Assembly (NCBI GenBank): GCA_015143295.1
Contig: CM026571.1
Span: 33,446,505-33,510,504, forward strand
DNA: 64,000 nt
Origin: Tetracentron sinense
Lineage: Eukaryota > Streptophyta > Magnoliopsida > Trochodendrales > Trochodendraceae
Direction: 5' to 3'
In this document: in pieces, positions 6,237 to 56,394 of the stretch
How positions within the stretch are numbered: the stretch's first letter is position 1
Layout: each line of letters opens with the position of its first letter
Program-made: the position numbers and the translations under genes
Notes under the pieces: generated by a model
The model's input: the letters and a program-made list of their open reading frames with translations, nothing else
Told to the model about the DNA's origin: nothing
Databases searched by the model: none

Positions 6237-6381
6237 TCAACATAAATCAAAGTCACGACTCCTATCTAGAGCACCATCGTCATGATAGTGATCCATGGAA
6301 GGCTCCGGGTCACGGTACTCTTCCTCGACCCAAGGTTCTTCGCCACACAAATCGAATGGAACCCGAGCACCTGCCGATCAT
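6237..6381 (-). pseudogene. LTR A copy of the conserved acidic mini-ORF, frameshifted by 1 nt
   Basis: Reading the minus strand from the ATG at 6381-6379, an extra base right after the ATG shifts the frame. Past it the frame carries PFDLCGEEPWVEEEY and ends after DFDLC at a stop (6239-6237). Copies in LTRs C, D, E and B have the same order of features. The total of 145 nt is one more than a multiple of three, which is the shift itself. Function unknown. Confidence 0.6.
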
Positions 6382-6392
6382 AACAATATCGA

Positions 6393-6411
6393 CTGAGCAT
6401 GGAATACTCAG
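6393..6411. promoter_or_regulatory. Conserved LTR hairpin CTGAG...CTCAG (copy A)
   Basis: CTGAGCATGGAATACTCAG is a near-palindrome with a 5 bp stem. Equivalent sites occur at 37754-37772, 45077-45095, 50898-50916 and 53783-53801, always 410-465 bp before the LTR 3' end and just upstream of the mini-ORF. Role unknown. Confidence 0.7.
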
Positions 6412-7322
6412 TGTATACAAACTAATAACAATAAAGCGGTTAGGCATGGAGCATACAAGACATGGAGAATGAAATCCGTAAAATCCTTAAAGCATGGAAA
6501 CCGTGAAAACATATGTGAGATAATATTCGAAACCAAAACTGTAACCGTGTGAGTCAATCGATAATCATAGCCTTATGAGTTCTTGTGAGTTCATGGAGTT
6601 ACTTAGAGTCATTATGATCCGTAGAGACATAGAGCATAGAGCAATACCGTAGAGCATTTCCATAGAGCATAACCTTAGAGATCTTAGAGCATTTCATTGT
6701 GATCCGTAGAGCTTGTGAGAAGATCTTAGAGCATTATCATAGAGTTTCCTTGTGAGCATGGTATGATCCTTAGAGCTTGTGAAACGATCTTAGAGAAATC
6801 ATAGAGTTACTTAGAATCATACATTAATCGTCTTTTCGTGAAGAACCTTTGTTTGTACTTTGAGAAATCCATGGAAACCATCGGTTCATGCGAGACATGC
6901 GAGCATATGCACTTAATAAGAGAAATCATCATATTTACGCATAGAATCCCTTAGAGGTATTTTATCAAACACTTAGAGTGCATCATAATAGTAACCTTCA
7001 TCCAAGTATATAATCACACATTTTCATACATAAAATCAATACATATAGATAGGGCATAGATAAGAAGAATCATATTTAGTAACTAGTAGGATTGCAAGAT
7101 TGTAGTAGAGTGTATCTACCTTGGTGAAATTAAAGACTTTGATTCCCAAAGGCTTGAACAAGCAATAACCTTGTGTTCTTGGTTGTGAATCACCAAGGGA
7201 AGTGGAAGAACCTTGATCTTCCACAAGCTTGATCAACAAGTAGTTCCTTTCCTCCTTCTCCTCTTCAAATCCCTCAAAAACAATGCACAAAGGGTTTGTG
7301 AAACCCTAAGGCACGAACCCAG

Positions 7323-14759: not shown

Positions 14760-15410
14760 TGTAAAGTCCATGTTTTTGTATTGGCATATTCCGGTGTAAA
14801 AACAAGTGAGTCTAGGTATCTAGGAGTAGTTCTTGTGTCATTGCCGTCAAGCATCCACGACAAGTGAAGTTGAAGCGCTTTGAAGAATCGCTTGATCCAC
14901 TCGGATGATCATTTCCTTTATAGGATGGTAAGTGACCTAGATATCATGTGGCCATAGGTGGGATTTGACCTAGAATAATCCTAACTTGATGCCTTAAGTG
15001 GTAAAAGTGTCCTAGTCTAATCATACGGACCCTAGGTGATGACATAAGTAGTGCAAAACAAGTTAACAATGCTAAAAGGTTGCTTGTTTTGCGCATATCT
15101 CCAAAACCGTAGATTAGATTTTGCTCTATAATATGTCAAATTGACCGTGTCAAAAATAGCTACAACTTTCATGAGGGGACCGAAATCTGGAAATGAAGTT
15201 TTAAACCCTAGGTGATGAGATAAACAGTTCAAAACTTGTTTTAAAATCTGAAATTTTTTCAAAAAACCAAGGTTGCTTGTTTTGGGTGTATCTCACAAAC
15301 CGTATCTCAGATTTTGCTTTATATTATGTCAAAATGACCGCGTCATAAAGAGCTACAACTTTTGTGAAGGGTGCAAGACCCAAAAATGAAGTTTGAATTT
15401 CGGGTTGGCA

Positions 15411-15566
15411 CCTCAGGGTCGACCCTGACCATTTTGGGTAGACCCTGGGTATAGCAATATTTGTACCAGATTTTTTGGTAGAGAGTAATTTTTTTAAGGG
15501 TCGACCCTGAGGACCATCCGGTCGATCGAAAGGCACCATCTGGTCGACCGAATCTGCCCCATGGGT
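15411..15566. repeat. GTCGAC palindrome cluster, copia 5' LTR
   Basis: CAGGGTCGACCCTGA (about 15413), AAGGGTCGACCCTGAGG (15496), CCGGTCGATCG, TGGTCGACCGAA and ATGGGTCGACCCTGA occur within 160 bp. The 3' LTR has the same set at 20867-21021. Confidence 0.85.
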
Positions 15567-15662
15567 CGACCCTGATATGTGGGTTTTGCTAAAACGATTC
15601 CTTGGTTCCTTCTTTGGTTTTTAACCTAGTTTAGCAACTTCTAAGCATGGTTTTCACTTCCC

Positions 15663-15672
15663 TATTTATATA
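15663..15672 (+). promoter_or_regulatory. Probable TATA box, copia 5' LTR
   Basis: TATTTATATA 100 bp after the palindrome cluster. The same sequence is at 21112-21121 in the 3' LTR. Confidence 0.6.
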
Positions 15673-16444
15673 GAACCCTTCCACTTCATGGAGTACAACT
15701 TAGGGAGTGTGTGGAGAGGGTTTTTAAGTTCCTCCAGAGGTTATAAAACCTATGAAAATTGGTGCTCTCCTCCCCTTTTGTTAATGCTTTTAACCTAGAG
15801 TTTGCAAGCCCAAAGTTCGACTTTTGCTTGTTTGGACTTGTGCATTGAAGGAGTCCATCTAGGTGATGATTCTTATAAAACCATCAAACCATTCTGGATA
15901 GAACACCTTGGCCGGAGTGTTTCGGAGCTTTTGCAAAGGAGATCGAATCGAGAAGGATTGTGGTAGAGTGATTTGGTCGGTGGATTCCGAAGCCGTCATT
16001 GACGGAGATCGATTGGAAGATCGTTGACTGTTTTCGAGACACAAAGAGAAGTACAAATGGCTGCGGTTGATCACGAAACTTGAGAGTACGTGATGAATTT
16101 TCAAGGCATGGAGGACTAAGAACTGAAGGATCATGATGTCGAGTCCGAAGGAGTCAAGTTCGAGTCTTGTAAGTTCTTGTTTACTTTGTCTTAGTGGATT
16201 CTCATGGCTGGACTAGGTCCCGTGGTTTTTCCCGGAAGGGTTTCCACGTAAAAATCTTTGTGTTGTGGTTTGCTTGGTTTTCCTTACTCCGCACTTAAAT
16301 TTTATCATCTCTTAACTAAATAACTTAATTGTTAAAATCATAGAAAGGGTTGATAGACTTATAGGAAAACCTATTCATCCCCTCAACTTTGTGAGTTCTC
16401 AACTCAAACATAGATTTGGGATTCACCGAATTAATTTTTTCAAT

Positions 16445-16456
16445 TGGTATCGAAGC
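16445..16456 (+). promoter_or_regulatory. Primer binding site of the copia element
   Basis: TGGTATCGAAGC two bases after the LTR end resembles the initiator tRNA-Met site TGGTATCAGAGC used by most plant LTR elements. Confidence 0.8.
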
Positions 16457-20190: not shown

Positions 20191-21891
20191 TGTAAAGTCC
20201 ATGTTTTTGTATTGGCATATTCCAGTGTGAAAACAAGTGAGTCTAGGTGTCTAGGAGTGGTTCTTGTGTCATTGCCGTCAAGCATCCACGACAAGTGAAG
20301 TTGAAGCGCGTTGAAGAATAGTTTGATCCACTCGGATGATCATTTCCTTTATAGGATGGTAAGTGACCTAGATACCAAGTGACCATAGGTGGGATTTGAC
20401 CTAAAATAATCCTAACATGATGCCTTAGGAGGTAAAAGTGTCCTAGTCTAATCATACGGACCCTAGGTGATGAGATAAGTAGTGCAAAACAAGTTAACAA
20501 TGTTGAAATGTTTTTAAAAAAACCAAGGTTGCTTGTTTTGCGCATATCTCCCAAACCATAGATTAGATTTTTCTCTATAATATGTCAAATCGACTGTGTC
20601 AAAAATAGCTACAACTTTCATGAGGGGACCGAGATCTGAAAATTAAGTTTTAAACCCTAGGTGATGAGATAAACAGTGCAAAACTTGTTTTAAAATCTGA
20701 AATTTTTTCAAAAAATCAAGGTTGCTTGTTTTGGGTGTATCTCACAAACCGTAGCTCAGATTTTGCTCCATATTATGTCAAAATGACCGCGTCATAAAAA
20801 TCTACAACTTTTGTGAAGGGTCCAAGACCCAAAAACGAAGTTTTAATTTCGGGTTGGCACCTCAGGGTCGACCCTGACCATTTTGAGTCAACCCTGGGTA
20901 TTGCAAGATTTGTACCAGGTTTTTTGGTAGAGAGTAATTTTTTTAAGGGTCGACCCTGAGGACCATCCAGTTGCCCGAAAGGCGCCATCCGGTCGACCGA
21001 CTGTGCCCCATGGGTTGACCCTGATATGTGGGTTTTGCTAAAACGATTCCTTGGTTCCTTCTTTGGTTTTTAACCTAGTTTAGCAACTTCTAAGCATGGT
21101 TTTCACTTCCCTATTTATATAGAACCCTTCCACTTCATGGAGTACAACTTAGGGAGTGTGTGGAGAGGGTTTTTAAGTTCCTCCAGAGGTTATAAAACCT
21201 ATGAAAATTGGTGCTCTCCTCCCCTTTTGTTAATGCTTTTAACCTAGAGTTTGCAAGCCCAAAGTTCGACTTTTGCTTGTTTGGACTTGTGCATTGAAGG
21301 AGTCCATCTAGGTGATGATTCTTATAAAACCATCAAACCATTCTGGATAGAACACCTTGGCCGGAGTGTTCTGGACCCTTTGCGAAGGAGATCGATCCGA
21401 GAAGGATCGTGGTAGAGTGATTTGGTCGGTGGATTCCGAAGCCGTTATTGACGGAGATCGATCGGAAGATCGTGGACTGTTTTCGAGACACAAAGAGAAG
21501 TACAAGTGGCTACGGTTGATCACGGGACTTGAGAGTACGTGATGACTTTTCGAGGCATGGAGGACTAAGAACTGAAGGATCGTGGTGTCAAGTCCCAAGG
21601 AGTCAAGTTCGAGTCTTGTAAGTTCTTGTTTACTTTGTCTTAGTGGATTCTTATGGCTGGACTAGGTCTCGTGGTTTTTCCCGGAAGGGTTTCCACGTAA
21701 AAATCCTTGTGTTGTGGTTTGCTTGGTTTTCCTTATTCTGTACTTAAATTTTATCATCCCTTAACTAAATAACTTAATTGTTAAAATCATAAAAAGGGTT
21801 GATAGACTTATAGGAAAACCTATTCATCCCCTCGACTTTGTGAGTTCTCAACTCAAACATAGATTTGGGATTCACCGAATTAATTTTTTCA
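20191..21891 (+). repeat. 3' LTR of the copia element
   Basis: Begins TGTAAAGTCCATG directly after the polypurine tract and ends TTTTTTCA before CTTGC; 1701 bp. Confidence 0.95.
20867..21021. repeat. GTCGAC palindrome cluster, copia 3' LTR
   Basis: Same arrangement as in the 5' LTR; two of the palindromes have lost symmetry by point change (CCAGTTGCCCG and ATGGGTTGACC). Confidence 0.85.
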
Positions 21892-22212
21892 CTTGCCTCA
21901 CAAGCAATGCAAGTGTTTTATGTTGAAGACCCGTTGGAAAAAGACTGACATGTCGCTATTCAGTTCAAAACAAGGAATACTTTGACATGGGAGAGGGCGG
22001 TCATTCAAATTTTGCTGAGGCATTGCCTGAAATTCTGTAACCTAATGTTGTACGATTAGATGACACTGGGCTAGATGTTGAAAATATTAGTGATATTAGT
22101 TGCAGATATCCCTGGAACAACAATCTATGTACCTCTACCCATCACCGAGGTGGAGTCTTTACATGACCGCTCAAGCGATTTTGAAGAAAATGATGATGGA
22201 CTCTCTATATAG
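21892..22212 (+). pseudogene. TNP2 transposase, 3' end beyond the copia insertion
   Basis: Starts inside the CTTGC target duplication and reads ASQAMQVFYVEDPLEKD, then TGA at 21946-21948 where Trp is usual, then HVAIQFKTRN. After frame changes the acidic tail FEENDDGLSI ends with TAG at 22210-22212. It is the conserved C-terminus of TNP2 proteins. Confidence 0.82.
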
Positions 22213-26490: not shown

Positions 26491-26684
26491 AGATTAATTG
26501 GAGATTTCCTAAGGTTAAAACTTAAGGGTTAGCTTCAAGATCGGGAATTCGGCTTTTCGGTGCCCAAATCGGGCATCAAAAGGTGCTGATGTAACTCCAA
26601 CACTAGCTAGCTAACACTAAATTCAGAACATGGATAAACTTTGACTTACAGATTGCATGTTATGCCTCAATGTACCACCCGATT
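26491..26684. other. Spacer between the 82 bp repeat and the foldback
   Basis: No gene or repeat recognised beyond weak similarity of its last 30 bp to sequence after 27510. Confidence 0.4.
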
Positions 26685-27510
26685 CCTGCACTGTTTATTA
26701 CAACCGTATTTATGGAAGAAGATATTTGATAAATTTTCTTACTAAATGACCCTTACAGGGGTCAGGAATGTCCTCATTCTTAGACTGCTTATGCGGACAC
26801 TCTTTACAATAAAAAGTCTAGTGATGTTGAGGTTCGTGATTCATAGATATACATTCTTTTAGAACCTCTTCCTTGACCAGACCTTCACATGCGTATGCAC
26901 ACGGAATGGATGATGATGACATACAATGACCAAAACAACGTGAATAACAATATTCACCTTTAGTTATGTCGTTAACATCGTGGAAGGTTCTGTGTTACTA
27001 AAAAACCACCAAACTACGTGAATTTGAATAACTTGAACTTTTTCATTTCTTTCTCTTCTTATCCCTATCACCATTACTGTTCCCGATAACTTTCTTTTTG
27101 GGATAGAGGTCATCTAAACAATTCAGAGATAGAAGAAATGACATCTTGATGCCTAAATAGGGCTTACTTCCACATACCTAGTCCTGTAGTCGTTTAGTAG
27201 CGCGGAATCCTCCACGATGTTAACGATATAACCAAAGTTGAATATTGTTGTTCACATTGTTTTGGTAACCGTATATTATCATCATCGATTACGTGTGCAT
27301 GCTAACGTGAAGGCCTAGTCAAGGAACAGGTTCTAAAAGAATGTATATCTATAAATCACGAACCGCAACATCGTCGGACCTTTTATTTTAAAGAGTGTTC
27401 GTATGAGCGGCCCAAGAATGAGGACATTCCTGACCCATGCAAGGGTCATTTAGTAAGAAAATTTATGAAGTATGTACTTCCATAAATGCGGTTATGATAA
27501 GCAGTGCAGG
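26685..27510. repeat. Long foldback (inverted repeat), arms about 320 bp
   Basis: Left arm 26685-27005 and right arm 27190-27510 are reverse complements with scattered differences; the loop is about 185 bp. Outer ends are CCTGCACTG and CAGTGCAGG. Shared stretches include AAATTTTCTTACTAAATGAC, GGTCAGGAATGTCCTCATTC and ATAGATATACATTCTTTTAG. A transcript through it would form a long imperfect hairpin. Confidence 0.93.
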
Positions 27511-27574
27511 ATTTGGTGGATTTAGGTCATAGTTTGGATTTGGTGGAAGATTATAGGTTTATGCCAAAGTATAG

Positions 27575-29090
27575 TTGAGAAAACACATTAGAAGAAACGA
27601 GATCGAAATCCCACCCCCAGGTTAGAAATTGTGGGACGATGTAGGTTTAGGCCAATGTATAGGATCCAAGTATGGATTTCGGTCGTCTCGGTGCTCATAT
27701 TGGGTATACGACCTCGGATTCGCTCGAAACCAACTCAAACACTAAGGAAGTATTGAAACACACGCGTTAGAAGAAACGGGATCGAAATCCAACCCCCGGT
27801 GTGGAAATGGTGGGACGATGTAACTTTAGGCCAAAGTATAGTATCCAAGTATGTATTTCGGTCGTCTCGGAGCCCAAATCGAGCATATGGCATCGGATTC
27901 GCTCGAAACCAACTCAAACACATAAGATGTATTGAAATACACCCATGAGAAGAAACGGGATCGAAATCCGACCCCCGGTTTGGAAATTGTGGGACGATGT
28001 AGCTTTAGGCCATATTATAGTATCCAAGTATGGATTTCGGCCGTCTCGGCACCCAAATCAGGCATGCAGCATTTGATTCGCTCGAAACCAACTCAAACAC
28101 ATAGGATGTATTGAAATATGTGTGTGAGAAGAAACGGGATTGAAATCCAACCCCCGGGTTGGAAATGGTGGGACGATGTAGGTTTAGGCCAATGTATAGG
28201 ATCCAAGTATGGATTTCGGCCGTCTCGGTGCCCATATCGGGCATACTACCTCGTATTTACTTGAAACCAACTCAAATATTTAGGATGTATTAAAATACAT
28301 GCATTAGAAGAAACAGGATTGAAATCCGACCCCCGGTTTGGAAATGGTGGGACGATGTAAGTTTAGGCCAATGTATAGTATCCAAGTATGGATTTTAGCC
28401 GTCTCGGCGCCCAAATCGGGCATACGGCCTCGGATTCGCTCGAAACCAACTCAAACACATAAAATGTATTGAAATACGCGTGTGAGAAGAAACGGGATCA
28501 AAATTCGAGCCCCGGTTTGAAAATGGTGGGACAATGTAGGTTTAGGCCAATGTATAGTATCCAAGTAAGGATTTTGGCCGTCTCGGTGCCCATATCGGGC
28601 ATACGACCTCGGATTCGCTCGAAACCAACTGAAACACATTGGATGTATTAAAATACACGCGTTAGAAGAAACGGGATCAAAATCTGACCCCCGGTTTGGA
28701 AATGATGGGACGATGTAGGTTTAGGCCAATGTATAGTATCCAAGTATTGATTTCGGCTGTCTCGGCGCCCAAATCGGGTATATGGCCTCGGATTCGCTCG
28801 AAACTAACCCAAACACATAGGATGTATTGAAATACATGCGTGAAAAGAAACATGATTGAAATCGGGCATACAGTTTGGAAATGGTGGGACGATGTAGCTT
28901 TAGGCCATATTATAGAATCCAAGTATGGATTTCGGCCGTCTTGAGGCCCAAATCGGGCATACGGCCTCGGATTCGCTCGAAACCAACTCCAACACTTAGG
29001 ATGTATTGAAATACACGTGTTAGAAGAAACGAGATCGAAATCCGACCCCCAGTTTGGAAATGGTGGGACGATGTAGCTTTGGGATGTATG
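27575..29090. repeat. 179 bp satellite array, about 8.5 copies
   Basis: The landmark TGGGACGATG (allowing single changes) falls at 27632, 27811, 27990, 28169, 28348, 28527, 28706, 28885 and 29064: an exact 179 bp period nine times. Each unit also holds GGATTTCGGYCGTCTCGG, CGGATTCGCTCGAAACC and AGAAGAAACGGGATCGAAAT. Units differ by substitution but not by length. Short minus-strand frames across units (for example 28677-29093) are repeat by-products. Confidence 0.97.
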
Positions 29091-29632
29091 CATTTTTTAC
29101 ATTAATTAATAAACATCATAATGTGTAATAATACGACCGATTATTCTTTTGGATTCTCCAACAACATCAAATTATTTCTCATCCAACGTTTCAAACGCAA
29201 ATTGTTTATAGTCATTGCTATGAATATGGATATTTTTTCTGCACTATCAAATATTGATTCAAGGTAATTGAATGTTTGACTTTTAGGTACTAGGGAAGTA
29301 TGAGAACAATGTCATAACACTATTGAGACGAGGGAAAGCTAGGGGAGAACTGGGGATTGACAGATGGTGCTCGGGAGGACCTTCGTAAGGCTTGTAAATA
29401 TGCACCTGAAGACATGCAAGGTTGTTGCGAGGGAGTTGTCTTTACGTGATAAACATGACAAGGCTGTTTCAAAAGTAGATTTACAAAGGACATTGAATTT
29501 ACAGATATAGTTATGGATGTGGATGTGGAATGTATAGATTTTGATATGAATTTTTCTATGATGTGAAATGTTTGAACACAGGTTACAGGTTTTCTTGAAA
29601 AACAGGCTATTGAAAATAAAAAATTTAAGTAT
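29091..29632. other. CACTA region between satellite and right subterminal repeats
   Basis: A/T-rich with no recognised gene. A 29339-29500 stretch is less A/T-rich and may be a decayed exon, but I cannot assign it. Confidence 0.35.
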
Positions 29633-33746: not shown

Positions 33747-35091
33747 CCTTTTAGTCGTGGGTTGAGGGTTTTGAAAGGTCCCTAAAGCTTTCTAAACCTA
33801 AAAAAGAGTGAGAGAATGAATTTTTGAGAGATCCAAGAGGGGAGATTAAAGGCTTTTCAAGGAGAAATGGTGAAAAAGCGTAGATCAACCCCATTCGCAA
33901 GTGCGTGATCGTAGGAAAAGGATCGTGAGAGGTAAATATGATTTCCTTCCTATCAATATAGGGATTTTTGAGATAAATATGATGAAGTCATAGATCTAAA
34001 GCAAGAGTAAATATGCTTGTGATGTTTCAATCTATTATGAAAAATAAATATGATGATCTTATGATGTTTATACCTGGATTTTCTTATGGAAAATATATGT
34101 GATGACTTTGTGATGTTTAAATCATGATTTTCCCTTGAAAAAAAAAATCTATATATGATGTTAGGGAATTTTTAGATTTTGATTTTCTTATGGATGGTAT
34201 ATATGATTAATGGAAAATGTTCTTAACGGTGATTTCCTTGTGAAAATTTTTATGTGAAGGATGTTCTTCATGATTTAAATTTTGTATCAACAAGGGGAAA
34301 GGGATTGATTTTATAGTGTAAGGAAGATGAGAATGGAGGAAGGGGATGATATTTACAATTGATGAACTATTCTAAGTATGCTTTGAGATCATGATGTGTA
34401 TTAAAAACCAGGGTCCTGTGAGATGTATTTGATTACAAACGTGTATTAAAAAAATAGACAGGATAAATAAAATTGTCTTTTATTTTATTTGACAAATCTA
34501 TGTTTTATATTGATCATTTATGAGAACCCCTACATGTTTAAATGTATGCATGATTTACAAGCTTTTATTTCACTCACACGGATTCACGAAATCTATACAT
34601 GAACAAGTATGAGAATAAACAAGATGACAAGTATTATGCAAGTACACAAGGACACAAGCATCATGCATGATTGAGTTTTGCACTGACTGAGTACCCACAG
34701 GCCTATAATCAAGGCAAGACCAGCCGTATACACCGGCGAATGTGTAGACAAGCCGTATACATCGAATAATGTGTATATTGTGTGGTACTTCGGAAAGTAG
34801 CGTATATGTTAGTCTTTACTCGATATATGGGATAGAGTTATATTAAGTTATTACATTTGCATGTTGTTGGATAAATTCACGAACGGAAAAATAAGCAAGA
34901 TAAACAAGAGAAATAAGCACAAGTGATCATGTATAAGAATCGAAATTGAATTATGCTTCCGCACTCTGAATTGTTACATGTTTATATGATATGTGAATCT
35001 TAAAAACCATGTTTGTATTAAATCTCGTTATATTGTTAGATATGATTTTATATATACGTTGGGTAATATGTTACTCAGCTGATGACTGTTG

Positions 35092-35214
35092 TTGTCGGCA
35101 GGTTATAGTTTCGATACCGATGCTCCAGGACATTGGGAGGAAGAAGAGTATGAGGAGGAGCAGGAAGAGCCAGCAGGTGACTACCGTGATGGAGAATGGA
35201 ATTTGGATTGTTAG
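35092..35214 (+). pseudogene. LTR B copy of the conserved acidic mini-ORF (TTG in place of ATG)
   Basis: Reads LSAGYSFDTD, then WEEEEYEEEQEEP, and ends EWNLDC before TAG; 40 residues. The first codon is TTG where the copies in C, D and E have ATG. A stop lies three codons upstream. The Glu-rich core and Cys end match the LTR C and A copies. No known domain. Confidence 0.6.
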
Positions 35215-37602: not shown

Positions 37603-37743
37603 TCAACAGTAGTCGAGGTACGACCACACGTCAAGGTCTCGGTCCGCCTGAGGCTGAAGTGGGATAAACGGCTCTCTCTCCTCTATATACTCTTCCTCGA
37701 CCCAAGGCTTCGGGTCGAGGGCTTCCTCAATACCTGCCGACAT
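37603..37743 (-). CDS. Conserved acidic mini-ORF in LTR C (46 residues)
   Basis: Starts MSAG at 37743, runs IEEALDPKPWVEEEY then IEEREPF, and ends YLDYC before TGA (37605-37603). Strongly acidic. The MSAG start, the PWVEEEY core and the Cys end recur in other LTRs of the window although the surrounding DNA has diverged. No signal peptide or known domain. It lies in the LTR 3' third, so it would be in both the leader and the trailer of element RNA depending on where R begins. Confidence 0.5.
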   Translation of the reverse strand: MSAGIEEALDPKPWVEEEYIEEREPFIPLQPQADRDLDVWSYLDYC

Positions 37744-38034
37744 GAAAGTACGGCTGAGCATGAAATACTCAGTGAGTACAAGCTACTAGCTAACCATAAC
37801 AATAAGAACACACAACAACGATAGTACAATACAAAGCAAAAATAGGAGCATCACAAAAGAAATAGCATAAGACACGGTACAATGCAATCATCTTGACGTG
37901 CGTGCATGAATGCGAAAACTCCGATAAAACTCGTGCTTGAAAACCCGTTTCATATCTCGGTATGCCTTGTAGAAATCATGTATGCGTGCATGCATGAATG
38001 CCTCGTCATCATCTTGTAAACTTGCATTTTGTAA

Positions 38035-38310: not shown

Positions 38311-39301
38311 ATGCAATATTTTCTTGTTGGTTATTATATGCATATGCTCTTGAAATCTCGATTCATGCAACATGCGTGCTCATGTACGTGTCAATAGTAC
38401 AATCAGGAAAATGAGGATAACAAAAGAGATATTGCATTTCATTTAAATTCATAGCAAATCATGCAAACATTTAGGTGATCAACATAGCATTTGGTCGAGT
38501 CATCACTTACAAGAACAATTACATAAGGCTTACATCCAATTCCTTTAAGTCATCATTTCATAGGTTAGGCATTTATCAAACACATAACATGCGATGTCCA
38601 TTAATAGTTCATCTTCTTCTTCTTTAATGCATATTTTCCATCCAATCACATAAGGGTAAGTTTATTATTTGTAAAATGCCCATCCTCCATTTTCCATTTC
38701 CCACACCACACATATCACACATCATACATTTGGCATCCCATCGCCTCAATCAACATTCCATACACATCCATATCTTTTTTCCTTATCTTGTTTATATTTA
38801 TTGAGATGATACAATTCATAGGGAAGGAAAGCATAATATAAATAATCGCCATTTACAATAAAAAAAAACCTAGGTTATTGCTAGGAAAATTTAGTAGGGT
38901 ATACTAACCTTAGATCAAGGCTTGATCTTGGTAGGAACCTTGATTTGAGCTCCAACTTGAAAGGAGGAAACCTTTTCTTGAGGGAGACTTGGTTTGGGGA
39001 AGAAAATCCTCTTGAAATACCTTGGAGAATGCTGCCCTAGCTTGAGAACGAGATCCCCCCACGAGCTTGAGCCTTGAACTTGAAGCAATCCAAGTTTGAG
39101 GATGATCTAGGGTTGTCAAACCCTTTGATTCCTTCTCCAATGGAAACCCTAGGTGCAAATCCCCTTCTCCTCTCTCTCTAACTCTCAAAACCCTCTAAGT
39201 ATGTTGAATAAGCCCTAAAGGCTCGGGTAAGCCTTATGAAGTAAAGGTTTAACACCCGAAAGACAAAAATGCCCTTACTGAAATTTATGTAAAAACGTGA
39301 A

Positions 39302-44945: not shown

Positions 44946-45065
44946 CTAATAGTGACCGTCTACCGGAGGTTCCTCCATAGGTTCCTCGACAAACTCCTTC
45001 TTCACCCAAGGGCTCGGAGCACAGATATCAAAAGGAGCAACTGCTCCGCTATCACTTGCCGACAT
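44946..45065 (-). CDS. Conserved acidic mini-ORF, 3' LTR of D (39 residues)
   Basis: Starts MSASDSG at 45065, continues APFDICAPSPWVKKEF and VEEPMEEPP, and ends DGHY. The same frame stays open upstream to 45179 with a hydrophobic stretch (IVIAMLWLLVSVWYP), so a longer protein with a membrane segment is conceivable. In the other LTRs the upstream frame is not kept, so the MSAS start is preferred. Confidence 0.5.
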   Translation of the reverse strand: MSASDSGAVAPFDICAPSPWVKKEFVEEPMEEPPVDGHY

Positions 45066-46404
45066 ACGACGTACGACTGAGCATGGAATACTCAGCGGGT
45101 ACCAAACACTAACCAACAGCCATAGCATAGCAATAACAATACAAGGTAGGAAGCAATTTATATCATAAGAGGAAAGCAAACAGTATATAATTCATGCTTG
45201 CATCACATCAAGTCGAAAATCTCTTGAAAACGTCATGTGCTTAACTCGGCTTGAAATACTCTTTTCGTGTTCAAAACGAGTCTTGTCATGTATCTTGTCT
45301 TGTCGTGTCGTATCGTGTCATGCTTATATCATGCTTGTCATGCATGCTTGCTTGCTTCCAAAATAAACATGTTCATGCTACTTGTGAGGGAGGGGAGGCC
45401 CCTCTTCCTATATGAATGCAACTTGTCATGTCATGTTCTAGCTTGTGATCATGCTTGCTTGGAAAATAAACTACTTGTGAGGGAAGGGAGACCCTTCTTT
45501 CTAAATGCATGCTAGTCTTGTTCTTGCCAAAAGCGAGGTAAAATATATCGTAGGATATGTCCCACCTCTATTTACCAACCCTTCCTTTTGGCCTTGTCAT
45601 GGTGTTCGTAAATCGGGAATAAGACCTTGGAAACAAAACACGGTGTTTAATGCTTGAAACCCTACTCGTGGACTACATGCCGTGCTCGTGGTTTCGTGTA
45701 CAATAAAGGATGACATTGGCATAGAAAGCATTTGCATTTAATCAAGAATTAAATCAAACAATTAAGCATTTAATCTATCCACATGCCATTCTAGAATTTA
45801 AGGAAACTCACGCATATATTTTCTAAGAACAAATCAGCATTTTCTTCATTGTGGCATTTCATCAAATACTTGGTATGTGTATTATGGTAAATCCTAAATC
45901 TCGGATTTCTAGGTGGGTTAATGCTCACAACATACATGTGTGTTCGTTATTAGTACAATGCCCTCCCCATTTCGTTCATTTCATAACATACACACGGCAT
46001 CCAATCGCCCATACACACTCCATCCATACATCCCAACCATCCTTATTCTGAGAAATTAGGGAAAACAAAAAAAAAGGAAGAAAAGAGAGGAGAAGGTGAA
46101 CTAGGAGGGTAGTATAGGGTACCGACCTTGATTTGGGTTGAAGAACACCCTTGATGTGGATTTCCAACTTGAGGAGGAACTCCCACTTGGTTTGAAGGAA
46201 CTCTAGTTGCTATGGGGAAGGCCCCTTGCTTGAAATCTCCAAGCTTGAACCCCCTTTGATCTCCCACTCCAAGCCTCTTTGGAGGATTTTCCCAAAATCC
46301 TCTTCTCCTTTCTCCCCTCTTTCTCTCCTCTCTAGGTTAGAAATACCTCAAATGAGGATCCCTAACAATACAAGGGTTTAAGACCCTCAAATCCGGCTTC
46401 AGTT

Positions 46405-46672
46405 ACGGCATGTGATTGATCGCACACTTATCTGCGATCGATCGCAGGTCCTTGTGATCGATCGCACCTGGATGCGATCTATCGCACATGAACCCGAACA
46501 CATTGGTCTGATTTCCCTCTGTATGCGATCGATCACACATTCTTGCTATCGATCGCAGAACCCTGCGATCTATCGCGCCTGGGGAATCCATCTATCGCAT
46601 ATGACCCCGAGAGTTTGGGAATCATTTCACCTGTATGCGATCGATCACACCTGACTTGCGAGCGATCGCACC
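46405..46672. repeat. GCGATCGATCGCA palindrome array, 3' LTR of D
   Basis: About ten units such as TGCGATCGATCGCAGG, GTGATCGATCGCACC and TGCGATCTATCGCAC, spaced 13-30 bp. The 5' LTR has only about half of them (52155-52314), because segments between units are deleted there. Confidence 0.9.
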
Positions 46673-47035
46673 CTTTAGATTTTGTTGTTTTCTTCCTTTT
46701 TTTTCCCTACTTTGGTAATTCGACCATAACTTTTGACTCGGTTGTCCAATTTGGACGATTCAACTTGCGTTGGATTCGTCTTTCGAAGGGGAACATTCCT
46801 AGGATTTTAGAATTTCAAATTTCTTCTTTATTTATTGACTAAATTGCTCCTGAAGTCGACTGATTCGCAAATTGGTTTCAGTAACTCGGGTTTTCGATAT
46901 ATTCGACTTAGGAATACTACTTCTTAACACTTAGAGTTCTTTAAATTTTCTTATTTCATAGAATTAGGAGGATTACAAAGGAAAACTGCCTTGGCATAGA
47001 TCCCAATACATGACAAAAATTTTTGGGGCTCTATA

Positions 47036-47046
47036 TCCTCCCCCCC
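47036..47046 (-). promoter_or_regulatory. Polypurine tract of element D
   Basis: GGGGGGGAGGA on the minus strand, touching the 3' LTR. Confidence 0.88.
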
Positions 47047-47127: not shown

Positions 47128-47889
47128 CTATTCAAATAACTCTGGGTATTTCGCTTTGACTTCAGCTTCACGTTCCCATGTGGCCTCTTCCCGAGCATGA
47201 TGTTGCCACTGAACGAGCACTAATGGAATACTCTTGTTGCGAAGGACTTGATCTCTTCGATCCAATATGTGAATCGGCCTTTCGACTAGAGTGAGCTCCT
47301 CTCGGATTTCCAACGGTTCCAAGTCTATGACATGCGAAGGGTCCGCAATGTACTCCGAAGCATAGACACTTGGAAAACATTGTGAACCGCGGCCATGTGA
47401 GGTGGAAGAGCTACTTGGTAGGTGACTTCACCAACTTGTGTGATAATCTCAAACGGCCCAACATACCGAGGACTACGCTTGCCTCTCTTTCCAAATCTCA
47501 TAATCCCCTTGCTAGGAGATACTTTCACAAAAACTTGATCCCCTACTTGGAATTCCAAGTCCCTACGGGGAGTGTCAGCATAGCTTTTCTGACGATCTTG
47601 GGCAGCTTTCAACCGATCTCGGATGATCTTGACTATACCCGCAATTTGCTCGATTAACTCCGGACCAAGTATTTTTCTCTCCTACCTCATCCCAGTAGAG
47701 AGGAGACCTACAGCTTCACCCATACAAGGCCTCAAATGGTGCCATTTAGATACTTTCCTGGTAGCTATTGTTATAGGCGAATTCAACCAAAGACAAGTGT
47801 TCTTCCCAACTGCCCTTGAAATCCAACATACACGCCCGAAGCATGCTGACTGCCCAAAGCAACTAGGAAACTTTCATAACATAAGGTAG
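47128..47889 (-). pseudogene. Integrase C-terminal end and chromodomain of element D
   Basis: The minus strand reads MLDFKGSWEEHLSLVEFAYN near 47830, then GPELIEQI, then RQKSYADTPRRDLEFQVGD, VFVKVSPSKG, YVGPFEI, and HNVFQVSML. After a shift near 47325 it reads IDLEPLEIREELT and the chromodomain-like end LVQWQHHAREEATWE, AEVKAKYPELFE. This is the tail of a chromovirus (Tekay/Del type) polyprotein. The catalytic part of integrase is deleted; the join to gag is near 47870-47890. Confidence 0.9.
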
Positions 47890-50455: not shown

Positions 50456-50467
50456 GCTCTGATACCA
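50456..50467 (-). promoter_or_regulatory. Primer binding site of element D
   Basis: TGGTATCAGAGC on the minus strand, the exact initiator tRNA-Met complement site of plant LTR elements, 4 bp after the 5' LTR. Confidence 0.93.
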
Positions 50468-50471
50468 CCTT

Positions 50472-52676
50472 TGTCGTGCCCAAAACCCACCCTAGGAGTT
50501 AGAGTGAATCTTGGACGACTTGCCATGACTTACATGTCTTGCTTGACGAAATAACCTGTAAAATACATGGAGCATATACCATAGAGGACAAAATAGCGGA
50601 AGCATTTACTACATGGCACAGTGGAAGCCTACAAAACCTCTATGTATATATACATGATCCAAGTTTGTACAAAATGACATTACAAAAGAAAGTGCAGACA
50701 TGCCCGCCAAAATACATAGATATAACTCTCAAGCTCACCCACTGTCTCTCATTTAGAATCTACCACCTAATAGTGACCGTCTACCGGAGGTTCCTCCACA
50801 GGTTCCTCGACAAACTCCTTCTCCACCCAAGGGCCCGGAGCACAGATATCAAAAGGAGAAACCGCTTCGCTATCACCTACCGACATAAGACGTACGACTG
50901 AGCATGGAATACTCAGCAGGTACCAAACACTAACCAATAGCCATAGCATAACAATAATAATATAAGGTAGGAAGCAATTTATATCATAATAGGAAAGCAA
51001 ACAGTATATAATTCATGCTTGCATCACATCAAGTCGGAAATCTCTTGAAAACGTCATGTGCTTAACTTGGCTTAAAATACTCTTTTCGTGTTCAAAACGG
51101 TCTTGTCATGTATCTTGTCTTGTCGTGTCGTATCGTGTCATGCTTATATCATGCTTGTCATGCGTGCTTGCTTGCTTGCAAAATAAACATGTTCATGCTA
51201 CTTGTGAGGGAGGGGAGGCCCCTCTTCCTATATGAATGCAACTTGTCATGTCATGTTCTTGCTTGTGATCATGCTTGCTTGGAAAATAAACTACTTGTGA
51301 GGGAAGGGAGACCCTTCTTTCTAAATGCATGCTAGTCTTGTTCTTGCCAAAAGCGAGGTAAAACATATCGTAGGATATGTCCCACCTTTATTTACCAACC
51401 CTTCCGTTTGGCCTTGTCATGGTGTTCGTAAATCGGGAATAAGACCTTGAAAACAAAACACGGTGTTTAATGCTTGAAACCCTACTCGTGGACTACATGC
51501 CGTGCTCGTGGTTTCGTGTACAATAAAGGATGACATTGGCATAGAAAGCATTTGCATTTAATCAAGAATTAAATCAAACAATTAAGCATTTAATCTATCC
51601 ACATGTCATTCTAGAATTTAAGGAAACTCACGCATACATTTTCTAAGAACAAATCAGTATTTTCTTTATTGTAGCATTTCATCAAACATTTGGTATGTGT
51701 ATTATGGTAAATGCTAAATCTCGGATTTCTAGGTGGGTTAATGCTCACAACATGCATGTGTGTTCGTTATTAGTACAATGCCCTCCCCATTTCGTTCATT
51801 TCATAACCTACACACGGCATCCAATCGCCCATACACACTCCATCCATACATCCCAACCGTCCTTATTCTTAGAAATTAGGGAAAACAAAGTAAAAGGAAG
51901 AAAAGAGAGGAGAAGGTGAACTAGGAGGGTAGTATAGGGTACCGACCTTGATTTGGGTTGAAGAACACCCTTGATGTGGATTTCCAACTTGAGGAGGAAC
52001 TCCCACTTGGTTTGAAGGAACTCTAGTTGCTTTGGGGAAGGCCCCTTGCTTGAAATCTCCAAGCTTGAACCCCCTTTGATCTCCCACTCCAAGCCTCTTT
52101 GAAGGATTTTCCCAAAATCCTCTTCTCCTTTCTCCCCTCTTTCTCTCCCCTCTTGCGATCGATCGCACCTGGATGCGATCTATCACACATGAACCCGAAC
52201 ACATTGGTCTGATTTCCCTCTGTATGCGATCTATCGCGCCTGGGGAATCCATTTATCGCATATGACCCCAAGAGTTTGGGAATCATTTCACCTGCATGCG
52301 ATCGATCGCACCGTTCAGATTTTGTTGTTTTCTTCCATTTTTTTCCCCTACTTTGGTAATTCAACCATAACTTTTGACCCAGTTGTCCAATTTGGACGAT
52401 TCAACTTGCGTTGGATTCATATTTCGAAGGGAAACATTTTTCGCATTTTAGAATTTCCAATTTCTTCTTTATTTATTGACTAAATTGCCCCTAAAATCGA
52501 CTGATCCGCAAATGGGTTTTAGTAACTCGGGTTTTTGATATATTCGACTTAGGAATACTACTTCTTAACACTTAGAGTTCTTTAAATTTTCTCATTTCAA
52601 AGAATTAGGAGGATTACAAAGGCAAACTACCTTGGCACAGATCCCAAAACATGGCAAAAAGTTCCGGGGCTCTACA
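50472..52676 (-). repeat. 5' LTR of element D
   Basis: 2205 bp; begins TGTAGAGCCCCGGAAC and ends GGGCACGACA on the minus strand. Shorter than the 3' LTR through deletions in the palindrome array. Confidence 0.95.
50767..50886 (-). CDS. Conserved acidic mini-ORF, 5' LTR of D (39 residues)
   Basis: MSVGDSE then SPFDICAPGPWVEKEF and VEEPVEEPP, ending DGHY. It differs from the 3' LTR copy at several residues yet stays open with identical length. Several differences are conservative or at variable positions. Confidence 0.5.
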   Translation of the reverse strand: MSVGDSEAVSPFDICAPGPWVEKEFVEEPVEEPPVDGHY

Positions 52677-52681
52677 TATAG

Positions 52682-54195
52682 TCTCTTATATGTGGAAATA
52701 CTCTCTTGTAGCTATTGATTTCATGAAACCCTCTCTGCATCAAGATAAAATCTTATGAATAGTGAAGTGAGCTAACTTGTGATGATGCTATGCCTTTAAC
52801 CCATGAATAAAAGGTGTAAATGGTTATATGTTTTATATGTTAGTATCCAAAGATGAAAAGCATGTTAAAAGCCACAAGTTTTGGGAAATACAAGTAGAAA
52901 AACCTTACTTTCAATGTGATTGGAATGATGTAAAGTTATTATATATGGATTATTGTGATGGATGAATTATGTTTAGTATTGGACATATGACCATATGTAA
53001 AGTGTTTCCTTTAATCTCTACCATGTTATATCACAATTGCTACACGGACACATATGTATATGCGTGATCGAGTTTTTTTAAATTATGGGTATCCAAAAGA
53101 AGAAGTACAAGTATATAAGATGTAATACAAGAATAAGAAGAGGAAAAGTATAAGATACAAATGAACCAAATGAAAAGTACAAGAAGCAAAAGTGGTATAC
53201 GAAAAGTACAAGAAGTACAAGATGTATATGAAAACTATAAGAGGCAAAAGAAGTTACAAGAAGTACAAGAAGATGGAATGTATATGGAAAAAGTCGATGG
53301 CAATGCATGATAGCAGGCCACCTGGAAGGGAAATGGATACTGGCTTCGGACTCCGATAATAGCAAGCCGCTCAGAAGGGAGATGGATAATGGTCGTCTAC
53401 TCCGAAGGTAGCCAAAGGTGAGGCTAACATTAGGCCACCCAGCTTACGTGGGTACGGGTACTGGTTGTCCGACTCCGGAGGTAGCAAATGATGAATACCA
53501 AGGTATTTTAAATACCCGTACATGAGATGACAATAAAAGATGAAAACCAAAATATTTTAAATACCTGCATATGCAAGGATAAAAGATGACAAAAGATGAT
53601 AAGAAGACGTTTTTGATAAAAGATGATAAGAAGATGTTTTCCGGTGGTATTTTTCTGAGATAGATGCACATGATATGATTTGGTTTTCCACTCTCTGATT
53701 TCAGGAATGCATGTGAAGTGATTAAACTGTGACATATGTTGTATTGCTGTTTATGATATTACTATCTAGTGGTTTGTATACGCTGAGTATTCCATACTCA
53801 GTCGTACATATTATGTCGGCAGGTCCCTTCGATATCTGTGGCGAGCGCCTTCAGGAGTCGTGGGTTGAGGAGGAGTCCACTCCTGCTGAGCTTCAGGAGC
53901 ATCAGAGGTTGCTCGAGAGGTGGCCTCATGTTTAAGCAAGAGAGAGAGAGACTTGTACATAAATTTTGTTGAGCGAGTATGTTTGCTCTTTGTTTTAGGT
54001 TATATATAAATGGAGATATATTATGTATAGATATTTTGTAGTACCCTTCTGCTACCATACATAGATTTGTATTATGCTTCTGCTATCACATGTCTTATAC
54101 GTTGTACATGATTTACATGTTGTATAGGATGGTTTGGTAATGAGTTCACGTCGCCAAAGTATCCTACCTCTTAGGGAGTATTTTGGATCATGACA
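52682..54195 (+). mobile_element. LTR E, right part
   Basis: Continues LTR E after element D. It has a region with AAGAAGTACAAG repeats (53095-53290) and two to three copies of a GGAAATGGATACTGG...ACTCCGA unit (53284-53490). The hairpin CTGAGTATTCCATACTCAG is at 53783, then the mini-ORF, and the LTR end is TCATGACA at 54195. The polarity is opposite to D. Confidence 0.82.
53813..53935 (+). CDS. Conserved acidic mini-ORF in LTR E (40 residues)
   Basis: MSAGPFDICGERLQESWVEE then EESTPAEL and a Glu/Leu/Arg-rich end, RWPHV. It has no spacer between MSAG and PFDIC, whereas D has six residues; such length differences are multiples of three. The frame also remains open upstream to 53729. Confidence 0.5.
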   Translation: MSAGPFDICGERLQESWVEEESTPAELQEHQRLLERWPHV

Positions 54196-54200
54196 GTTTT

Positions 54201-54212
54201 TGGTATCAGCGC
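54201..54212 (+). promoter_or_regulatory. Primer binding site of element E
   Basis: TGGTATCAGCGC, 5 bp after the LTR; one change from the initiator tRNA-Met site. It proves the LTR is the 5' LTR of a plus-strand element and not a solo LTR. Confidence 0.85.
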
Positions 54213-54408
54213 TTAGGCTCTAGATTCCCTCGGACTGGGGTTGTTGTTTCAGGGTAGATATGTCTCCTTCGAGTTAGAGCATGTTCAAGTCTAAGAATTA
54301 GAATGGTATGGGTAGAAGTGGTCCTTTAAGTTGAACCTTGAACTCAGATGAACTTGAATTTTGGGATGATACAACGACACAATAGGTACCAAGTAAGGGT
54401 ATTAGATC
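54213..54408 (+). other. Internal leader of element E
   Basis: Non-coding leader cut by the Tat-lineage insertion. The rest of E lies beyond the window. Confidence 0.6.
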
Positions 54409-56394
54409 TGTGAGCATGCGATTTCACTCCCTATAAGAATCTCATTGGATTGTTTAAGAGTCGCCACTTATTCATTCAGAAGGGATAAGTCCCCCGGGAA
54501 ATGTTGGATAAGGACTTGGTCTAGATCAAAGATCGAGGTAAGAGGTTCGGTTAAGTTCGGGGAAGAGGTTAGGCACCTTGATACTTCCACACATGGTGGT
54601 TCCCTACTTACTAGGTTTAAGCCAAATTAAATGTCAAGATTAATCGAATGCCTAAGTATTTAAGTTAATACTAACCGGAAGAAAGTAAAAGCAAACTATG
54701 GTCGAACCTAGGTCTGGAATTTTACAAAGAGCCAGAGAGGAGTAAGGGCTTCCCAATAGACCTACAGTGGGCCCCAGGAGTTGAGGTATGTGGGCCCTAC
54801 GAAGGCCCAAAGCTACTATAAAAAAGGCTCATAATGTCGGTAATAGGATTACCGATAGTATGCTGGTTTAGGTTTGCAGACCCACTAACCATGGTTAGGG
54901 GTCGAGTTAGGGTCTGGCTTTTGGCAGGGAGTTAGCTAAGGGTCTAAAGTGACAAATCTTGGCCTTGGAACTGACCAGGGCTCAGCCTAACTAGGGTTAA
55001 AGCTCGAGTTACAGGGGTTGTGCATAGTGTCGGTAATGTAACTACCGACCACTAGCAGTTTTGCTAAAAACGCCATTTCCTCTTTTTGGGCTTGAACCAG
55101 TAGACATCTAGGGGTTCCGTCATGGACTGAGGGACCCCTAGACCTCTTAGGGAGTAACCATGCATGAAAAAAAGGGTCTTGTACCTGAGTACAGCTAAGG
55201 GAAGTCCCCAATGCCTATGGTTAAGGTAAGGGGACTCCCTATCTTTGGTGGAAGCTACAGTCAGAGAAGATGATAAATGGGACCCCTGGAGTAGGACCAG
55301 GGGTCCTTTACATTGGTAAATAGAGAAATCAAGAAGGGGAGGGCCTGTTACCCTTATACAGCACTGCTCACTGCGGTGGCTGCTACCGGTGTTGGGTGGA
55401 GGTGCACGGTGGCCCCTGGCAGGTTATGGAGGACTGGTAGGGACAAAGGATGAAGGTCTAAGCAAGGATTGAGCTCAGGTAAGGCTGAGTTGGGCTGGAC
55501 ACAGTTGGGCAGAGGTTTGATCCTTCAAAATCGGATCTAGAAGAAGGAGGGGTGGTGGAGCTTATATAGAGGAGTGGAGGATAGGCTAGGGGCATTTGAG
55601 TAATCCCTACAAGCGTGGGGAACCGGCAGTGAAGGACCCAGGTGGCCAATAGGGTCCTGTAACACGCAATTATAGAGAACACAGAGTGGCGGAAATCAAA
55701 TTACTGCCACACCCAAACAGAGGCAAAAGGAGGGTGTTGGTAATTCGATTATCGACACTCTGAGGTTGTTGCTATTACAGGCAACACCCTTACTCACTTG
55801 GGCCAAAAGCAAGTAAGGCACCTATTTGGGGGTCTTTCCTGCCTGTTTTCGAACTCATGAGGGGTGTGGGTCCCACCCTAGTGGGCCCCTAAGGTTGGTG
55901 GACCCTTGCTTGGGCCTACAAAGGTCTAGGCTATTGGTTTTAAGGCTTTAGACTAGGTAAGTGGGCCTTGAGCCCGAGGGACTTGTTATAGGGTTTTACT
56001 AGGTTCTAAGCTAGAGTTAGGTCTAGGGTTTGATCTAGGGCACACCTAGGATTAGTCTTAGGGTTTAGCTAGGGTCAGCCTAGGGTTTGGACTAGGGCTA
56101 GGGTTTTGGGAGTTTGGCTTTGCTAAATGGGCTTTGAGCTCGAGGGGTTTGTACCTAGGCTTGCCTAGGGTTTAAGCTAGGGCTAGGTCTAGGGCTTACC
56201 TAGGGTTTAGCCAGGGTCACATTAGGGTTTAGCCTAGGGTTTAGGGTTTTCCTAATGGTAACGGGCTTTTAGCCCAAGGGTTTTGGTTCTAGGGTTTTAG
56301 GGTCTTAGGACCTACCTAGGATTTTTTTAGGGTTCTACAGAGGACTTCACTAGGGGACAAGGTTTTGACAGGGTGTAAAAATTGGGTGCTTACA
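54409..56394 (-). repeat. 3' LTR of a Tat-lineage Ty3/gypsy element
   Basis: Minus strand begins TGTAAGCACCCAATTTTTAC at 56394 and probably ends GCATGCTCACA at 54409. The end region has GAATAAGTGGCGACTCTTAA, a text common near the LTR end of Tat-lineage elements. Part of it (55950-56340) is an irregular CTAGGGTTTAGCCTAGGG repeat. The element's other LTR is outside the window, so the target duplication cannot be checked. Confidence 0.82.
55950..56340. repeat. CTAGGGTTTAG-rich repeat within the Tat LTR
   Basis: Irregular units of CTAGGGTTTAGCCTAGGG and AGGGTTTAGGG. Similar to but distinct from the plant telomere repeat; no perfect CCCTAAA tandem is present. Confidence 0.8.

Follow-up and report, generated by a model that had tools for sequence, protein, structure and literature searches.

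Divergent LTRs of Ty3/gypsy retrotransposons in the Tetracentron sinense genome carry a short open frame at the same place, which raises the question of whether this frame codes for protein and, if so, how its reading begins. The window is the whole 64,000-nucleotide stretch of DNA analysed here. LTRs are usually masked and treated as non-coding, whereas here a motif with about 19,900 genomic matches marks a coding exon, which is under selection in the copies examined. Our reading, to which we assign a probability of roughly 0.55, is that a chromodomain Ty3/gypsy retrotransposon has an alternative 3′ exon whose coding part is this LTR stretch, and that the gag donor joins it.

The LTR block in the window

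The six frames (LTRs A, B and C, two copies of D, and E) lie where a first-pass annotation had placed them, and the frame starts 381–446 nt from the LTR end, as against the 0.3–0.45 kb given there. Searching the window with a profile for LTR 3′ ends gives six of them (next match, E 0.054), and the block is present at 6/6; since the profile was built from five of the six LTRs that it then recovered, this shows only that there is no further recognisable LTR end without the block. The block consists of a hairpin (CTGAGTAT..ATRCTCAG) followed, about 20 nt further on, by TCGGCAGGT and the open frame. The hairpin motif, read off these same LTRs, has five exact matches in the window against none in 100 shuffles.

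In LTR E, on the forward strand, the hairpin (CTGAGTAT...CTCAG, 53783..53804, called by motif and folding) is located 5′ of a 3′ splice-site-like TCGGCAG (53816..53822), which is based on base counts in 25 cluster representatives. The proposed exon adjoins this motif (53823..53935), is in phase 1 and reads PFDICGERLQESWVEEES...HV before the stop, by frame reading and profile. Right behind the LTR is a primer-binding-site-like TGGTATCAGCGC (54201..54212, forward strand), and LTR E is, judged by its sequence, a 5′ LTR or the remnant of one. LTR B, also on the forward strand, has a proposed exon at 35102..35214 (YSFDTDAPGHWEEEEY...LDC, stop) without an in-frame ATG. Its hairpin (35058..35079) differs from that of the other LTRs by a T-A to A-T double change.

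The other LTRs are on the reverse strand. The proposed exon of C (37603..37733; IEEALDPKPWVEEEY...LDYC, stop) is accompanied by a hairpin at 37751..37772. Element D includes an upstream copy, with its proposed exon at 50767..50876 (DSEAVSPFDICAPGPWVEKEF...GHY, stop) and a hairpin called by motif at 50895..50916, and a downstream copy, with the exon at 44946..45055, where the splice AG is mutated to AA, and the hairpin at 45074..45095. A primer-binding-site-like TGGTATCAGAGC is found behind the 5′ LTR of D (50456..50467, reverse strand). In LTR A the proposed exon (ARVPFDLCGEEPWVEEEY...FDLC, stop) lies at 6237..6370 and the hairpin at 6390..6411; like those of C and of the downstream D copy, this hairpin was called by motif and folding. 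The frame that the first-pass annotation described in LTR A does exist, but reading from the start which it gave, at 6381, does not give that frame. The open stretch begins downstream of the ATG, at 6377, and the peptide reads PFDLC and not PFDIC.

The encoded peptide is under purifying selection

The assembly (1.16 Gb) contains 19,267 exact hairpin matches, and a looser motif with TCGGCAGGT matches 19,928 times against 7 for a reversed control. From one chromosome-scale contig and the window we obtained 63 copies, picked by the exact hairpin (window B apart) and therefore not a random sample; they fall into 25 clusters by k-mer grouping and 61 of them were scored. The longest open member represented each cluster in the comparison between representatives, with copies open for fewer than 24 codons dropped, and copies open for fewer than 30 codons were dropped from the comparison of close pairs. 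These choices bias the set towards intact frames; the controls in the wrong frames were computed on the identical set of copies.

For 148 close copy pairs within clusters, pN/pS is 0.29 in the proposed frame and 1.27 and 1.20 in the wrong frames. The flanks give 0.91–1.12 downstream (47 pairs) and 0.74–1.11 upstream (27–28 pairs). Without CpG sites the proposed frame gives 0.44, and with transversions only 0.30. By cluster, the values are 0.28 (120 pairs), 0.37 (21), 0.18 (3), 0.12 (3) and 1.38 (1), where the last cluster has two members; the ratio is 0.34 once the largest cluster, the source of 120/148 pairs, is left out. Between cluster representatives (22), pN is lower than pS in 224/231 pairs, and within the window pS exceeds pN in all ten LTR family pairs of a peptide-guided alignment. 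The BLOSUM sum over the ten LTR pairs, which are not independent of each other, is 294 in the proposed frame against 84 and -79 in the others, and 0/1000 column shuffles reach the proposed-frame value. Nucleotide alignments made blind to the frame are in frame for every aligned pair in 3/10 settings and for 94–96% of pairs in the other seven.

The divergent LTR families encode a conserved acidic peptide, as the first-pass annotation had proposed, and the ratio of 0.29, compared to about 1 in the controls, reveals purifying selection on this stretch as protein. Among the 22 representatives, a Trp is present in all, preceded by Pro in 19 and followed five residues on by Tyr in 19, and the mean charge of the peptide is -8.4. 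No homologue of the peptide was found in the protein collection searched, a Pfam search returned one match, under its cut-off, Rfam gave no match above cut-off for positions 52700-54600, and scans of IMG/VR yielded no result of use. We consider it almost certain that the LTR stretch is coding.

That these are chance frames in a few old LTRs, as might be thought from the frequency of single frames this long in local shuffles (0.02–0.09 per LTR) and from the moderate result of a third-position test on the window alone (P 0.01–0.06), is a reading to which 25 clusters, 61 scored copies and 148 close pairs leave next to no weight. Selection could also preserve the block at the DNA or RNA level, through a regulatory hairpin or a binding site, with the frame as a by-product. 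The hairpin does fold in all five LTR families tested and B retains it by its double change. It lies outside the frame, however, and the frame is closed upstream in A and B, while the conservation downstream is codon-phased, with the ratio of 0.29 confined to one frame and a BLOSUM sum that no shuffle attained. A role as DNA or RNA is thus very improbable as the explanation of the frame. The first-pass annotation had named a dN/dS of about 1, indels that are not multiples of three in intact families and a conserved RNA structure as findings that would refute coding. The ratio is in fact far under 1 and frames are largely kept across indels; preserved RNA structure fails as an explanation because the signal is codon-phased, even though a hairpin does occur just upstream.

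The frame opens at a YAG|GT motif

The frame runs from a YAG|GT motif rather than from an ATG. The spacing between this motif and the hairpin is almost constant, with YAG present in 44/49 and GT in 46/49 fetched copies. Among the 25 representatives, position -1 is G in 21, position +1 is G in 24 and position +2 is T in all 25, and the bases beyond +2 are variable; the search pattern itself required Y at -3 and A at -2. The acceptor pattern has no match in 2/63 copies (L012 and L025). The sequence before GT swaps among GGCAG, GACAG, GTCAG, TTCAG and TGTAG, exchanges which, from their sequence, all preserve a 3′ splice site. GT provides the second and third bases of a codon, making this a phase-1 exon, and at least 34 codons are open in phase 1 in 47/61 copies, compared to 13 for phase 0 and 7 for phase 2. 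An extra AG between hairpin and acceptor is rare (3/49 copies; 4/100 copies). The acceptor is weak, with no strong pyrimidine tract. It is very likely that a splice site opens the frame, and the block has the appearance of a single exon within a larger, spliced gene.

The first-pass annotation had instead seen a free-standing mini-ORF beginning at an ATG, with a 1 nt shift in A and the missing ATG of B as exceptions. Neither is an exception, since the ATG sits outside the constrained frame. A short ORF of this type, starting at the ATG before TCGGCAGGT, could be a uORF in the leader of the genomic RNA or belong to an LTR transcript. An in-frame ATG is indeed present in 33/49 fetched copies and in 50 of the first 100 matches listed and, if splicing took place at CTCAG|YCG, this ATG would come first in C, D and E. 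It is missing, however, from the other 50 of those first 100 matches. The frame is kept with no in-frame ATG in L009, L024, L028, L032, L040 and window B, and in LTR A, where the ATG is out of frame; the ATG-less pair L002/L028 shows pS 0.43 and pN 0.06. In addition, 40–59 ATGs precede the ATG in question in the stretch taken as intron. The short ORF is therefore an unlikely account of the frame, and an exon opened by splicing is the reading retained below.

The element and its probable gag-pol intron

Three pieces of the element L049 provide Retrotrans_gag and zf-CCHC; RVP_2, RVT_1 and RNase H; and Integrase_H2C2 and SH3_Tf2-1. Its rve match (24.7 bits) is under the curated cut-off of 32.6 and its Chromo match (23.2 bits, E 6.3e-05) slightly under that of 25.1. 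The order gag, protease, RT, RNase H, integrase and C-terminal chromodomain identifies the element, on its domain matches, as a chromovirus, a Ty3/gypsy element with a chromodomain. In the window, element D has a degraded pol end, chromodomain-like, which finishes with ...KAKYPELFE and a stop (47131..47427, reverse strand). The chromodomain-like end and an intron before the protease separate these elements from Tat/Ogre. We place them tentatively in Tekay/Del, on the landmarks of an initiator-Met-type primer site, a polypurine tract and the chromodomain end.

The gag frame ends in ...ASDDVVQG (...DDVVRGT in L044) and the protease begins with GTLLVNE or GALLVNE (GILLVNE in L056). In the seven distinct elements that were read through, the two are separated by 124–146 nt, with a CAAG|GTACGC donor and a CAG acceptor. 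Intron lengths modulo 3 are mixed, yet each of the seven elements has a joined codon in phase 1 and an open frame across it. In five elements with pol still open, the first Met of pol is 86–88 codons in. The donor pattern was preset, so that its presence in the element rows is by construction; it is absent from L055 among eight long stretches. Gag donors were read only in C- and D-like elements (8) and in none of the ATG-less families.

In the genome, 50 places have the exact gag|pol exon junction without the intron (32 exact matches, 9 with a single mismatch, 9 with two), and the control has none. The intron-bearing donor pattern has 2,834 exact genome matches; the resulting ratio of about 1% is rough, since the patterns are unequal in length and reach. 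Gag and pol form one open frame through the junction in both intron-less copies examined, L057 and L058. These also keep the unspliced leader, its acceptor intact, which fits the fact that only RNA that keeps the primer-binding site, located in the leader, can be copied. A short intron that splits gag from pol and is removed precisely at a phase-1 donor is strongly indicated by these patterns, and splicing appears to be the best explanation of the 50 junctions, which are not 50 independent events. The remaining alternative is that they stem from an ancestral intronless lineage.

A candidate leader intron

A donor-like motif early in the LTR, AAG|GT..RTAC..CTACTA with variants, was called in 40/61 copies and 15/25 clusters, the call in L028 being doubtful. 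In the window, candidate 5′ splice sites of this kind are found in LTR A, where the site would close leader exon 1 (CCAAG|GTAGATAC, 7118..7119, reverse strand), in B (GAGAG|GTAAATATG, 33932..33933, forward strand), in C, whose relatives were also examined (CTAAG|GTTAGTATACC, 38907..38908, reverse strand), and in the downstream and upstream copies of D (ATCAAG|GTCGGTACC, 46125..46126 and 51945..51946, reverse strand). The 180 nt before the called donor contain 15 ATGs against 48.4 expected (15 clusters) and in 9/15 clusters none. The LTR from -700 to -40 before the acceptor has them in excess (559 against 302.0 expected). An acceptor-like TCTCAG|GA.. directly precedes the gag ATG in 8/8 distinct elements with the gag donor.

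From these features we infer a leader intron, running from the LTR donor to the acceptor that adjoins the gag ATG. Its removal would strip the AUG-filled leader together with the primer-binding site and leave gag with an AUG-poor leader. As the intron carries the primer-binding site, spliced messages and unspliced genomic RNA would be separate pools.

Rough donor and TATA matrices place TATA-like boxes also 3′ of the exon in C, D and E. A position of the exon in U3, upstream of the TATA box, was dropped as less probable on the early TATA-like boxes and the candidate leader donor. In L049-L052, the leader past the primer-binding site includes further donor-like sites (GGAAGKAAGT and GGAAGTGAGT). 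Arrays of GATCGATCGC-type short repeats occupy the early part of the LTR at 46451-47036 and 52152-52677 and are also found in LTRs A and C; their repeat number differs between copies.

Proposed splice partner of the LTR exon

In the reading that we favour, the gag donor would skip pol and join the YAG|GT of the 3′ LTR, both being phase 1. The product would be a Gag ending in ...DDVVQ-G and extended by an acidic tail of 26–43 residues with a PWVEEEY core. Use of the near acceptor would give Gag-Pol and use of the far acceptor, in the LTR, Gag with the tail, so that the choice between the two is proposed to set the Gag to Gag-Pol ratio by splicing. The tail would end inside the 3′ LTR, whose poly(A) site must then fall beyond the exon. 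The 5′ LTR would hold the exon as a passenger, since a single RNA is the template for both LTRs.

The agreement in phase between gag and LTR would, on its own, occur by chance in one case in three. A genome search for a fossil gag|LTR-exon junction gave 0 places; none would be expected, since an RNA joined in this way has lost the polypurine tract. The PW.EEEY tail is present in none of the 10 gag homologues viewed out of 12 matches (P0007 reads DDVVQGT followed by other sequence), so that these provide no outside support. In reports on sunflower, the expressed elements included no Tekay elements or fewer than their share.

Anchoring at a splice site does not tell which donor is used, and the exon might have a partner other than gag, such as the end of pol, a leader exon or an upstream exon within or outside the element. 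The candidate leader donor, present in the same LTR, would be one source. Leader exon 1 joined to the LTR exon was rejected as a coding path on account of the missing ATG in A, C and D and of an in-frame stop that immediately precedes the junction in A and C. A search by exact matches with one sequence type likewise found no fossil of leader exon|LTR exon (0 places). That RNA could have been copied, and its absence thus lends no support to use of the LTR acceptor. The gag donor, by comparison, has the right phase and appears active. We consider a partner other than gag possible and distinctly less probable than gag itself.

With gag as the partner, the simplest role of the tail may be in Gag dosage, and a CERV-like or chromatin role is possible. 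Somewhat more tentatively, the element might follow a three-way splice programme with an AUG-rich leader intron, the gag-pol intron and the LTR last exon, in which the tail serves as a separate functional module. The AUG-rich leader intron would then keep the genomic RNA from translation and the tail might act, for example, in RNA export or chromatin contact, as CERV serves Cer1. The LTR would be promoter, terminator and coding exon at once.

Relation to known systems

Plant LTR elements are described as generally intron-less in the accessible part of a 2025 review, with exceptions such as Ogre and EVADE. Against this rule, the chromoviruses described here appear to hold at least one spliced intron. 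Ogre (Tat) has an intron between GAG-PROT and the rest of pol (PMC6317226). As in Ogre, whose full polyprotein comes only from spliced RNA, a short intron would split the polyprotein, but Ogre is not a chromovirus and its intron follows the protease, whereas the intron here precedes it; the portion of the Ogre paper available describes no LTR-encoded alternative exon (PMC6317226). In the Ty1/copia elements EVADE and BARE, splice choice yields a Gag-only message, a likeness in which the junction proposed here is an inferred one, and BARE has separate RNA pools for translation and packaging, according to the available parts of these studies (PMC12786077, PMC3735527). Both differ from the present elements in being copia elements (PMC12786077, PMC3735527), and the short Gag of EVADE, as described there, ends at a premature stop just past the junction and not in a conserved exon in the 3′ LTR (PMC12786077).

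CERV of the C. elegans Ty3/gypsy element Cer1 is a second protein made by splicing, from an N-terminus that has peptides in common with Gag and a 3′ exon, and is required for export of the genomic RNA (PMC10309623). CERV has 517 residues with a long C-terminal half, and the text available gives no LTR location for it (PMC10309623). The additional ORFs of plant elements likewise represent coding capacity beyond gag-pol that is conserved across families, but their place is internal, for the most part in the interval from pol to the 3′ LTR, in the part of that work consulted (PMC7264820). A literature search outside subscription papers and preprints listed neither a plant element with an exon encoded in its LTR nor an intron in Tekay; it did return one paper mentioning, in the text available, an ORF in an MMTV-type LTR. 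We file the arrangement as a variant of known splice strategies, in a chromovirus.

MMTV Sag and HIV-1 Nef are proteins that the 3′ LTR encodes and that are made from spliced RNA. They are larger, independent proteins of animal retroviruses, and the likeness is one of arrangement, with no sequence relation claimed. It has long been asked how elements with a single polyprotein make an excess of Gag over Gag-Pol. If one phase-1 donor serves both a near and a far acceptor, this would be directly testable by ordinary long-read RNA, in a very abundant element family whose LTR exon is possibly added to the tail of Gag, the shell protein.

Other repeats in the window

Several other repeats were observed in the window. 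Positions 27586-29138 contain a satellite-like array of eight tandem copies with a spacing of 179 nt and 73–87% identity to the reference copy. A large inverted repeat is present at 26679-27516, with arms of 341 nt that are 83% complementary and 156 nt between them. A pair of 1.7 kb direct repeats, 94% identical (14760-16446 and 20191-21895), represents a separate LTR element, and the region between them includes what appears, by eye, to be copia-like gag sequence.
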